In this document: positions 2,403 to 58,759 of the stretch, in pieces
Layout: every line of letters begins with the position of its first letter
Numbering within the stretch: the stretch's first letter is position 1
Origin: Paracoccaceae bacterium
GTDB lineage: Bacteria > Pseudomonadota > Alphaproteobacteria > Rhodobacterales > Rhodobacteraceae
Direction: 5' to 3'
DNA: 64,000 nucleotides
Assembly: GCA_014762635.1 (NCBI GenBank)
Contig: JABURR010000017.1
Location: forward strand, 1 to 64,000
The notes under the pieces: generated by a model
The model's database searches: none
What the model was told of the DNA's origin: nothing
The model's input: the letters and a program-made list of their open reading frames with translations, nothing else
Translations under genes and position numbers: made by a program

Positions 2403-3041
2403 TCAGGGATCCCAGCGCAGGAAATTCGCGATCAGCCGCAGCCCCGCGGCCTGGCTCTTTTCCGGGTGGAACTGGGTCCCGACCATATTGTCGCGGCCCA
2501 CTATGGCGGTGATGTCGCCACCATAAAGGCAATGGGCCAGGCGGTGCCCGGTGTCGGCCACGCGGAACTGGTAGGAATGGACGAAATAGGCGTGATCTCC
2601 GGTGTGGATACCTTCCAGCACCGGGTGCGCGCGCTCGATCACCAGGTCGTTCCAGCCCATGTGCGGAACCTTCAGCGACCGGTCGTCGGGCTCGATCTTC
2701 ACCACGTCACCGGGGATCCAGCCGAAGCCGTCCACGGTTTCGTATTCATGGCCCTTTGAGGCCATCATCTGCATCCCCACGCAGATGCCCAGGAACGGGC
2801 GACCCTTGGCCTGCACCGCCTCTTCGATGGCCTCGTAAAGCCCGGTGAAGGCGTCAAGCTGACGCCTGCAGGCCGGGAAGGCGCCGTCGCCGGGCAGCAC
2901 CACGCGATCGGCCCGGGCCACGTCCTCGGGGCGGGAGGAGACCAGCACCTCGCCGCCGCCGACCTCGCGCGCCATCCGCTCGAATGCCTTCTGAGCGGAG
3001 TGGAGATTGCCGGAATCGTAGTCGACGAGGACGGTCAGCAT
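2403..3041 (-). CDS. hisH: imidazole glycerol phosphate synthase subunit HisH
   Basis: HisH is the class I glutamine amidotransferase partner of HisF and supplies ammonia from glutamine. The 212-residue product carries nucleophile C87 in [10 protein letters not shown] and the catalytic His-Glu pair in TQFHPEKSQ near residue 193. An oxyanion strand, VVLPGDGAF, lies near residue 50. The ATG at 3041 shares its last base with the hisB stop (TGATG junction), so the two are translationally coupled. A TTG one codon upstream is possible but less likely. Confidence 0.96.
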
Positions 3042-3628
3042 CAAAGCGCGCCCTTGGTCGAGGGGATGGCATCGGCCTTGCGCGGGTCGGTCTCGACCGC
3101 TTCGCGCAGGGCGCGGGCCACGGCCTTGAAGGCCGCCTCGGCGATGTGGTGGCTGTTGAACCCGTGCAGCGCGTCCACGTGCAGGGTGATCCCGCCGTGG
3201 GTGCTGAGGGCCTGGAAGAACTCGCGCACCAGCTCAGTGTCGAAGCTGCCGATCTTCGCGGTTGGCATGTCCACGTTCCACACGAGGAAAGGCCGGCCCG
3301 AAAGGTCCAGCGCCGCGCGCACCAGCGCGTCATCCATCGGCAGCAGGCAGGCGCCATAGCGGCGGATGCCGCGCTTGTCGCCAAGCGCCTGCGCCAGGGC
3401 CTGGCCGAGCGTGATGCCGGTATCCTCGACCGTGTGGTGATCGTCGATGTGGAGGTCGCCCTTCGCCCGGATCGTCATGTCGATCAGCGCGTGGCGCGCC
3501 AACTGGTCCAGCATGTGATCGAAGAAGCCGACCCCGGTCTGGTTGTCATAGCTTCCGCTGCCGTCGAGGTTGATCTCGACGGTGATGTCGGTCTCTGCCG
3601 TCTTGCGGGTGATCTTCGCGCTCCGCAT
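3041..3628 (-). CDS. hisB: imidazoleglycerol-phosphate dehydratase HisB
   Basis: HisB dehydrates IGP to imidazole acetol phosphate using Mn2+. The 195-residue product is the monofunctional type without a HolPase domain. Metal-ligand motifs are visible: [12 protein letters not shown] near residues 40-50, [10 protein letters not shown] near 68-77, and the second pseudo-repeat [12 protein letters not shown] near 165. The start [15 protein letters not shown] was preferred over a longer frame because it fits the family and lies just before the first beta strand. It is the first gene of the visible his operon. Its 250-base upstream region, which ends at tRNA-Gly, holds an unusual 11-bp repeat. Confidence 0.96.
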
Positions 3629-3736
3629 CGGGGCCTCCGCTGTGATGTCGCGGGGGTTATAGGCGGGGCGCGTGCGCATTCCAAGAGATTGCGCGACCTC
3701 GGGCGCGCGCATCGTTAACTGTGGGATCCCGGTGAC

Positions 3737-3769
3737 AAAAGCCCGACGGAAGTCCGATGGAATTCCGAT
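3737..3769. repeat. three tandem 11-bp units upstream of hisB
   Basis: Reading the plus strand there are three consecutive 11-base units: aaaaGCCCGAC, ggaaGTCCGAT and ggaaTTCCGAT. They lie about 110 bases upstream of the hisB start. The same unit type occurs four times at 57854-57897, upstream of the ilvB leader, and both copies are followed by a TTTGG-like flank. An 11-bp period is about one DNA turn, which suggests a phased protein-binding array. The function is unknown. Confidence 0.7.
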
Positions 3770-3879
3770 TTTGGAAATCGTTGTTTTTCGCGGTGTTAAC
3801 CGGCGATTCTGGAGGTTCGCGCACATCGCGCCGGGGCCGGGGTTGGCCCTGATATCCGATCACGATGTGAAGAGAAAAT

Positions 3880-3954
3880 TGGAGCGGGCGATGAGATTCG
3901 AACTCACGACCCTTACCTTGGCAAGGTAATGCTCTACCCCTGAGCTACGCCCGC
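3880..3954 (-). tRNA. tRNA-Gly (anticodon GCC)
   Basis: The minus strand folds into a full cloverleaf with the 5' stem GCGGGCG, D-arm GCTCAGGGGTAGAGC, anticodon loop TTGCCAA (anticodon GCC) on a TTACC/GGTAA stem, T-loop GTTCGAATC and an encoded CCA end. The total length is 75 bases. It decodes GGC and GGU glycine codons. It sits in the gap between hisB and the panE-like gene. Confidence 0.97.
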
Positions 3955-55758: not shown

Positions 55759-57516
<1,758 letters not shown>

Positions 57517-57558: not shown

Positions 57559-57587
57559 AAAAAAGCCCCCGTGTTTTTTTCGGGGGC
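57559..57587 (-). terminator. attenuator terminator of the ilvBN operon
   Basis: On the minus strand GCCCCCG, a nine-base A-rich loop and CGGGGGC form a perfect stem followed by TTTTTT, 43 bases before ilvB. GGCGCATGGG at 57585-57594 can instead pair with CCCATGCGCC at 57620-57629 (plus-strand reading), a 10-base alternative that overlaps the terminator stem and would act as antiterminator. Confidence 0.92.
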
Positions 57588-57612
57588 GCATGGGGTCCTC
57601 AATGGGTGTCCG

Positions 57613-57660
57613 TTACCGGCCCATGCGCCATTTTCCTACTACTACGATGAGGTCTCTCAT
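57613..57660 (-). CDS. ilv operon leader peptide
   Basis: The frame encodes MRDLIVVVGKWRMGR (15 residues) with AAGGAG six bases before its ATG. The Leu-Ile-Val-Val-Val run is the control region. Low charged tRNA-Leu, -Ile or -Val should stall the ribosome there, favour the antiterminator and let transcription reach ilvB. The stop codon lies 7 bases before the segment that pairs with the terminator. It is too short for ordinary gene callers. The layout matches classical ilv attenuators. Confidence 0.9.
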   Translation of the reverse strand: MRDLIVVVGKWRMGR

Positions 57661-57853: not shown

Positions 57854-57897
57854 AAAAGTCCGATGAAAGTCCGATAGAATTCCGATGAAATTCCGAT
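57854..57897. repeat. four tandem 11-bp units upstream of the ilv leader
   Basis: On the plus strand there are four exact-length 11-base units: aaaaGTCCGAT, gaaaGTCCGAT, agaaTTCCGAT and gaaaTTCCGAT, followed by TTTGGGATTTCG. They lie about 200 bases upstream of the ilv leader peptide and 26 bases past the bpt stop. The same unit is present three times before hisB. One unit per helical turn suggests cooperative protein binding along one DNA face. Confidence 0.75.
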
Positions 57898-57922: not shown

Positions 57923-58759
57923 TTATTTCTGGGTCGGGCGGCTGTCGGGCAGGCTGATGCGGGCAACCTGGTCGGCAATGGGATCGGACAGAAGCGGATG
58001 GGTATCGGCCGAATGCGCCTCGGGGTCGCCGATGTCCTGCCAGCGGCTGTCCTTGTAGATCTCGAGCGCGGAAAACTTGGCCTTGTAGCCCATCTTCGGG
58101 CTGCCCGGCACCCAGTAGCCCAGGTAGACGTAAGGCAACCCCGCCTCCTGCGCGATGCGCACATGGTCGAGGATCACGTAGGTGCCGAGGCTGTGCTTGA
58201 ACCGGTCGGGATCGTAGAAGGAATAGACCATCGACAACCCGTCATCGAGCACATCCGTCAGGCAGACCGCCGCCAGCGGGCGGGCCATGTCCTCGGCCTC
58301 GGCGGGTGCGGAATACTCGATCACCCGGCTTCGGATCGGGGTTTCCTCGATCATCGCGGCAAACTCGAAAATATCCATGTCCGCCATTCCGCCATCGGCG
58401 TGGCGGCTGTCCAGGTAGCTGCGGAACAATCCGTATTGCTCTTCCGTGGCCCAGGGCGAGGTCGCCTCGCGCACCAGGTCGGCGTTGCGCCTCATCGCGC
58501 GATTCTGGCTTTTCGAGAACTTGAAGTCCTTCACCCGGATCCGCGCCGACAGGCAGGCCGAACATTCGGCGCAGGACGGCCTGTAAAGCACGTTCTGTGA
58601 CCGGCGAAACCCTTGTTTGGAAAGGGAATCATTCAGCTTTTCCGCATATTCGCCCTGCAGGGCGGTAAACAGCTTCCGCTCCATGCGACCATCGAGATAT
58701 GGGCAGGGTTGGGGAGCCGTTACATAAAACTGCGGCGCAATAGGAAGCGTGTGGCGCAT
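57923..58759 (-). CDS. bpt: aspartate/glutamate leucyltransferase (Bpt)
   Basis: Bpt attaches leucine to proteins beginning with Asp or Glu, marking them for ClpAP by the N-end rule. The 278-residue product has the N-terminal ATE domain with [13 protein letters not shown] near residue 19 and [23 protein letters not shown] near 52-74, whose cysteines may bind a cofactor. The C-terminal GNAT-like domain has [12 protein letters not shown] near 180 and [22 protein letters not shown] near 220. The first Cys (C19) and the Cys cluster match active family members. Confidence 0.93.

Follow-up and report, generated by a model that had tools for sequence, protein, structure and literature searches.

The 11-bp repeat that lies before hisB in this Paracoccaceae genome is one of about 60 scattered, mostly intergenic copies of the same array, and it is therefore not a histidine/valine switch. 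Judged from their sequence and positions, the arrays are best read as a REP/BIME-like dispersed, mainly extragenic element of fixed build. The original prediction had proposed a regulator shared by histidine and branched-chain amino acid synthesis and had offered a dispersed short repeat as the alternative; it is the alternative that the genome-wide spread of the arrays backs.

The arrays beside hisB and the ilv operon

The window, that is, the whole 64-kb stretch of DNA that was analysed, contains two arrays, here called the his array and the ilv array. The identities of hisB and of the acetolactate synthase gene rest on NCBIfam profile matches. The arrays and the features around them are the following:

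3041-3628, minus strand: hisB, imidazoleglycerol-phosphate dehydratase (NF002109, 346.4 bits, cut-off 278)
3737-3769, plus strand: his array, three 11-bp units (sequence reading, TRF, unit criterion and pattern scan)
3880-3954, minus strand: tRNA-Gly(gcc), its 3' end 110 bp from the his array
55759-57516, minus strand: acetolactate synthase large subunit of the ilv operon (NF006581, 1130.6 bits, cut-off 974)
57559-57587, minus strand: attenuator-type terminator, read by eye as a GCCCCCG/CGGGGGC stem with a run of six T behind it on that strand
57613-57660, minus strand: ilv leader peptide MRDLIVVVGKWRMGR, between the ilv array and the ilv gene
57854-57897, plus strand: ilv array with four 11-bp units, as is standard in the family (TRF and pattern scan)
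57923-58759, minus strand: arginyltransferase gene, its stop codon 25 bp from the ilv array

The his array consists of the units aaaaGCCCGAC (3737-3747), ggaaGTCCGAT (3748-3758) and ggaaTTCCGAT (3759-3769), exactly where they had been predicted; a degenerate fourth unit, matching at three of six core letters, may be present at 3731-3736. TRF reports a period of 11 for both arrays (3739-3769 with a score of 41, and 57855-57897 with a score of 58, the top score among the 40 TRF rows of the window). The pattern TCCGATNNAANTCCGAT, at up to two mismatches, has five matches in the window, every one of them within the two arrays, which is above the expectation from 100 dinucleotide shuffles of the window (mean 0.54, maximum 4). 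The two arrays have the same orientation and period, as predicted. The predicted TTTGG-type 3' flank was also found: TTTGG directly follows the his array (3770-3774) and TTGGG directly follows the ilv array, as part of a weak TTGG-type 3' flank that accompanies arrays throughout the genome. A scan for promoter-like hexamers around both window arrays found none.

The statement that both arrays lie upstream of amino-acid operons holds for hisB, whose start faces the 5' side of the his array, and for the acetolactate synthase gene, but it is incomplete, as the tRNA-Gly gene and the arginyltransferase gene also adjoin the arrays. By its layout of leader peptide, GC hairpin and T run, the minus strand of window positions 57559-57660 is an ilv attenuator. 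The 136-nt ilv leader folds better than shuffled sequences (z -2.42), with a minimum-energy structure that shows the GCCCCCG/CGGGGGC hairpin only partly; the hairpin, read by eye, is missing from the results of a separate scan, and the leader/attenuator region has no Rfam match at the gathering threshold. Because the ilv operon has its own leader peptide and hairpin/T run in the usual layout for attenuation, its control needs no array.

A genome-wide family and its placement

In the genome as a whole (3.55 Mb in 98 contigs, 95.93% complete), TCCGATNNAANTCCGAT at up to two mismatches gave 92 forward and 93 reverse matches, while its reversal gave 1 and 2; for a pattern of the last junction the counts were 54 and 38, against 0 and 1. 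These matches correspond to about 60 arrays in all, or roughly one per 60 kb. We read 57 arrays, chosen from the matches of the two patterns, together with their flanks. Exactly four units are present in 47 of them, three in 7 (the his array included) and five or six in 3, when a flanking unit is allowed to differ at two of the six core letters. The array is built of head-to-tail 11-bp units with the consensus RRAAK-TCCGAY, one unit per helical turn, which form a core of 39-44 bp of direct repeats. In this genome the spacers come in a set order, which starts with RRAA plus G or T, continues with AGAAT and ends with GGTTT or GRAAT. The motif GTTAAC lies 20-30 bp 3' of the array in 8 of 55 right flanks, all within one 10-bp bin (loci L051, L066, L067, L073, L081, L097 and L098, and window positions 3795-3800, 3' of the his array).

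With about 87% of the sampled sequence called as coding, 53 of the 57 arrays are not wholly within a called gene; a few further arrays overlap the end of one. By gene context, 17 arrays are convergent, 28 tandem, 5 divergent and 4 wholly intragenic, and 3 lie at contig ends; the his array is classed as divergent solely because the gene caller omits tRNAs. The background for these classes was the set of gaps of at least 45 bp in 20 stretches of the same genome that themselves surround arrays. Relative to it, convergent gaps are enriched (17 of 50 arrays against 13% of gaps; p 1e-4 by number and 0.018 by length) and divergent gaps are depleted (5 of 50 arrays against 30% of gaps; p 0.0016 by number and 0.0004 by length). 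The neighbouring genes include those for citramalate synthase, chorismate mutase, branched-chain aminotransferase, PheT, dihydrolipoyl dehydrogenase, ValS and the glutamate synthase small subunit, as well as NusG, elongation factor P (EF-P), UvrB and CTP synthase, with others recognised by eye only. Amino-acid genes (hisB, ilv and those for citramalate synthase, chorismate mutase and branched-chain aminotransferase) do recur beside arrays, among many others.

On contigs longer than 68 kb the arrays are spaced more evenly than expected at random (coefficient of variation, CV, 0.56 against 0.80; p 0.011 for 25 gaps on 14 contigs), with positions entered by hand, the weak array C19:135730 excluded along with the shorter contigs, and a null model that places arrays anywhere, genes included. 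This is modest evidence.

A shared his/ilv operator was rejected because of the spread and the placement of the arrays. Matches scattered over unrelated places had been named beforehand as the result that would speak against a common regulator, and about 60 arrays beside mixed genes, with divergent promoters depleted, convergent gaps enriched and an ilv operon that carries its own attenuator, are what was obtained. A broader regulon, in which an OmpR/PhoB-type regulator that binds direct repeats would control the genes adjoining arrays, those for histidine and branched-chain synthesis included, is improbable as well. PhoB boxes are direct half-sites 11 bp apart that are bound by OmpR/PhoB-family regulators, and the arrays resemble them in the head-to-tail order of their half-sites, in the 11-bp interval and in the A-rich spacer. 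The array also lies 28, 26 and 29 bp before the dihydrolipoyl dehydrogenase start, and 29, 30 and 31 bp before the serA start, in orthologous loci, as a regulatory site might. As a class, however, arrays are not concentrated at promoters but favour convergent genes and avoid divergent promoters; those between tandem genes point both ways equally (15 along the direction of the genes and 13 against it), the functions of the neighbours are mixed, and no his or ilv neighbour match was found among 70 array entries of other, partly sampled genomes. An element acting at the RNA level, such as a terminator, an attenuator or an RNA-protein site in untranslated regions, has even less to recommend it and was set aside: arrays do often lie just past stop codons or just ahead of start codons, but the same balance of orientation between tandem genes stands against it, both strands of both window arrays fold no better than shuffled sequences (z -0.76 to 1.22), and in a search of the whole window against Rfam at the gathering threshold two tRNAs were the sole matches, with nothing at the arrays.

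Relatives, other genera and the replication strand

A 32-base pattern run against one genome for each of 84,980 species matched 10 stretches, of which Rhodovulum tesquicola has six, R. steppense two, and a Rhodobacteraceae MAG and a Paracoccaceae MAG one each. Within the family the arrays are patchily distributed; the three-unit pattern, at up to two mismatches, was found in 6 of 394 genomes: 99 matches in the genome under study (G000), 30 in G190, 7 in G382, 4 in G146, 3 in G153 and 1 in G084. Since 388 of the 394 genomes lack this pattern at the stringency used, any function of the arrays would be dispensable or otherwise served. With the two-unit pattern, at up to one mismatch, we counted 136 matches in the own genome, 75 in MAG HKST-UBA101 (G043, here MAG43), 67 in R. 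tesquicola (G041), 13 in R. steppense, 6 in MAG MO_188.B57 and 0-6 in each of 40 relatives. Two arrays of G190 with identical printed units lie 26 kb apart (C3:187-225 and C3:26388-26426), perhaps through duplication of the stretch or redundancy at the contig end.

Arrays are retained at orthologous places. We compared the neighbouring proteins of 57 own arrays, 21 of R. tesquicola, 20 of MAG43 and 29 of other genomes, a set in which two elements are listed twice, once per strand, and several of the 29 are weak. Array neighbours in R. tesquicola and MAG43 match neighbours of own arrays in 10 of 79 cases, against 4 of 137 for other genes of the same loci (p 0.007; p 0.05 and 0.07 for the two genomes taken singly). 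From the shared-neighbour list we picked 26 putative orthologous pairs by hand, some of which may not be true orthologues; their identity is 0.89 in the core, 0.60 in the spacers and 0.37 in the flanks, against 0.885, 0.54 and 0.295 for random non-orthologous pairs. As random pairs are equally alike in the core, the motif is maintained, by selection or by homogenisation, between which this comparison does not separate; copy-to-copy homogenisation could mimic constraint on the core. The orientation of both neighbours relative to the array is alike in 21 of the 26 pairs and differs in 5, three of them from own locus L092. The clearest example of retention is valS, in which the array lies in frame within a variable loop in the own genome, MAG43 and G382, where it encodes SDENPMEFR, SDESPMEFR and SDESPMEIR, respectively, and an array in another own gene encodes SDKSPMEIR.

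Of the 30 valS loci fetched, 19 have a loop that a simple motif sufficed to read, and most of these loops hold unrelated sequence. This hypervariable loop carries repeats that differ by genome (L062, L176, L128, L278, L275, L284) and is a possible catch-all site for finding the repeat family of a genome. In G051 it holds two copies of the 16-mer GTACAAAACGGTCAAT, and in G068 several copies of CTTGCA. The 16-mer, at up to two mismatches, has 56 and 45 matches on the two strands of G051 against none on either for the reversed pattern; elsewhere it is absent from G000, G068 and G020, and G190 has 3 matches against 2 for the control. We read 52 elements of G051 (in L278, L299, L303-L317, L337-L356 and L360-L379), 50 of which consist of two copies spaced at exactly 32 bp around a variable middle of 16 bp. 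An overlap with a called gene occurs in 8; the remainder comprises 15 convergent, 23 tandem and 3 divergent elements and 3 at stretch ends. A pattern for CTTGCA pairs, at up to three mismatches, has 10 matches in G068; the control pattern gave no match there, and three other genomes yielded none. Elements of similar build and other sequence appear to be used by other genera. The palindrome GATTTTTCGACGAAAAATC from the valS loop of G020 was considered as a third lineage-specific element and rejected, as with one mismatch it also occurs in G000 and G051 (a search of G068, again with one mismatch, did not find it); being alike in G000, G020 and G051, it looks like a common terminator. Its presence shows that the loop tolerates unrelated inserts, which weakens any argument from valS alone.

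Positions are partly shared between these elements and the arrays. Neighbours of G051 elements match array neighbours of other genomes in 12 of 99 cases, against 3 of 107 for other genes of the same stretches, with a p of 0.0096 that is a guide only, because the sample was enlarged by 20 stretches after the first result (6 of 64 for neighbours and 2 of 67 for the other genes, p 0.12) had been seen. Leaving out the valS locus, through which G051 was found, the counts are 11 of 97 against 3 of 107 (p 0.015). Orientation agrees as well, for example at gatB and in a gap common to L363 and L118. The G068 sample is too small for a test (3 of 14 against 0 of 3, p 0.54); there a CTTGCA element lies between serC and serA, where arrays sit in MAG43, G084 and G190. 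Tolerance of such places for inserts, at which the G020 palindrome in valS hints, is a sufficient alternative account of the shared positions.

GC skew read in the orientation of the element is negative for 38 of 45 elements in G051, 17 of 20 in MAG43 and 16 of 21 in R. tesquicola, one element being counted on both strands in the entries of the latter two. Neither the own genome (33 of 57, p 0.29) nor the other genomes pooled (19 of 29, p 0.14) shows significant polarity. Polarity was first seen in 5-kb stretches, and then followed in 19-kb stretches (MAG43 15 of 19, R. tesquicola 16 of 21, own genome 10 of 20) and by class of gene orientation. In G051 it holds for 14 of 16 elements in convergent gaps and for 7 of 7 that run against tandem genes, so that it is not simply a matter of gene direction, although gene balance averages +0.22 there.

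Known repeats, candidate roles and meaning

REPs and BIMEs are short, dispersed, mainly extragenic sequences present in tens to hundreds of copies and described as binding sites (PMC2817692 and PMC3116915, in excerpt). The arrays are likewise dispersed, multi-copy and extragenic, but they are head-to-tail direct repeats rather than imperfect palindromes that form a stem-loop, they lack the GT(A/G)G head (their consensus begins RAAAG-TCCGAT), and the cognate RAYT (PF01797) that REPs have was not found in the own genome. The excerpt of PMC10969869 describes Rickettsia palindromic elements as dispersed, about 150 bp long, palindromic and also present in frame within genes. These too are alphaproteobacterial, and the arrays share with them in-frame copies that encode a similar peptide (of the SDxSPMEFR type in three valS genes); they differ in being a direct-repeat core of 39-44 bp with only 4 of 57 copies wholly intragenic. 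As the defining palindrome of both groups is absent, the arrays are a variant of dispersed extragenic repeats and a member of neither. Polar chromosomal motifs of the KOPS/AIMS type (PMC5993296, in excerpt) are similar in that the orientation of the element appears to follow the replication strand in G051, MAG43 and R. tesquicola, but the arrays are far longer and rarer, mostly intergenic and not significantly polar in the own genome. Among the matches listed in a search of open-licence PubMed Central, in which the sequences themselves were also queried, no title or abstract start describes these elements.

That the arrays are phased multiple sites for a putative DNA-binding protein with a chromosomal role has, in our estimate, not quite an even chance of being right. 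The copy number, the near-constant number of units, the placement, the core identity of the orthologous pairs, the retained positions, the even spacing and the polarity in three genomes speak for this reading, as does the ordinary RNA folding of the arrays. Against it stand the lack of significant polarity in the own genome and in the other genomes pooled, the absence of the three-unit pattern from most genomes of the family, the equally high core identity of random pairs and the 8 of 52 elements of G051 that overlap called genes. Each 11-bp unit would be a half-site on one face of the helix, and a sequence-specific protein would occupy all four units jointly. The bound protein might then act on the chromosome, in its organisation or supercoiling or as a replication-oriented mark, and the role of the array would be chromosomal rather than that of a switch for the adjoining his or ilv genes.

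It is also possible, though somewhat less likely, that the arrays are a miniature mobile or selfish element of roughly 45-60 bp that spreads its own copies to sites able to tolerate them (the ends of genes, short gaps between cistrons and variable loops of proteins), perhaps entering via single-stranded DNA at the replication fork, and that renders the host no service. Spread by insertion accounts for the copy number and the lineage-specific sequences at least as simply as protein binding does, and a mobile repeat explains spread, lineage-specific sequence and lagging-strand polarity together almost as well. Unrelated elements specific to single lineages, arrays that lie in frame in the variable loop of ValS in three genomes, with loops of other sequence in other genomes, and strand polarity in three genomes, as insertion on the lagging strand predicts, all agree with it. 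So does a GTAG-headed hairpin, GTAGGCCGGGCTTCAGCCCGGCA: at up to three mismatches the own genome contains 13 copies of it, whereas the reversed pattern gives no match, and 10 of the 13 precede an array on its own strand, at a distance of 18-64 bp on the 5' side (10 of 57 arrays). Its copies lie on contigs C8, C12, C15, C17, C32, C53, C59 and C74 (for example at L091, L097 and L098), and it has the form described for RAYT-associated REPs in PMC2817692, in the excerpt of which RAYTs of that type are found only in gammaproteobacteria. However, spread driven by a RAYT was rejected on the ground that the own genome has no match to Y1_Tnp (PF01797), although at 95.93% completeness a missed gene is possible; among 16 genomes searched, PF01797 is absent from 14, the own included, and present in two weak carriers of arrays (G146 and G153). 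Carriage on plasmids or phages was likewise rejected, since the 48-base array consensus matched nothing in 72,556 plasmid and 50,697 phage records at E up to 1. By eye, the printed array flanks showed neither inverted ends nor target duplications. The internal order of the spacers is kept, and the persistence of arrays at orthologous loci, most pairs having the two neighbours in like orientation, also speaks against mobility. Protein binding and mobility could both be true in succession.

A bolder extension of the binding-site reading to the whole family is unlikely as it stands: Rhodobacteraceae chromosomes would carry about 50-100 replication-oriented sites for a putative helically phased machine, the recognition sequence of which would have been exchanged between genera (11-bp tetrad, 16-mer paired at 32 bp, CTTGCA pairs), with many positions kept (the valS loop, the serC-serA gap and the gatB end).

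For annotation, the practical consequence is that these arrays should not be taken for amino-acid operators. Dispersed extragenic repeats are familiar mainly as palindromic REPs linked to a transposase. The family described here is non-palindromic, has a near-constant number of helically phased units and has persisted at orthologous sites; in its stead, two other genera of the same bacterial family have unrelated sequences of similar build, in part next to the same genes. Should a binding protein exist, it would have had to change its specificity in step with dozens of sites, and this would make a tractable case of co-evolution between a chromosome-wide set of sites and its reader; if none exists, the arrays would be a new type of miniature repeat, the spread of which needs a mechanism.
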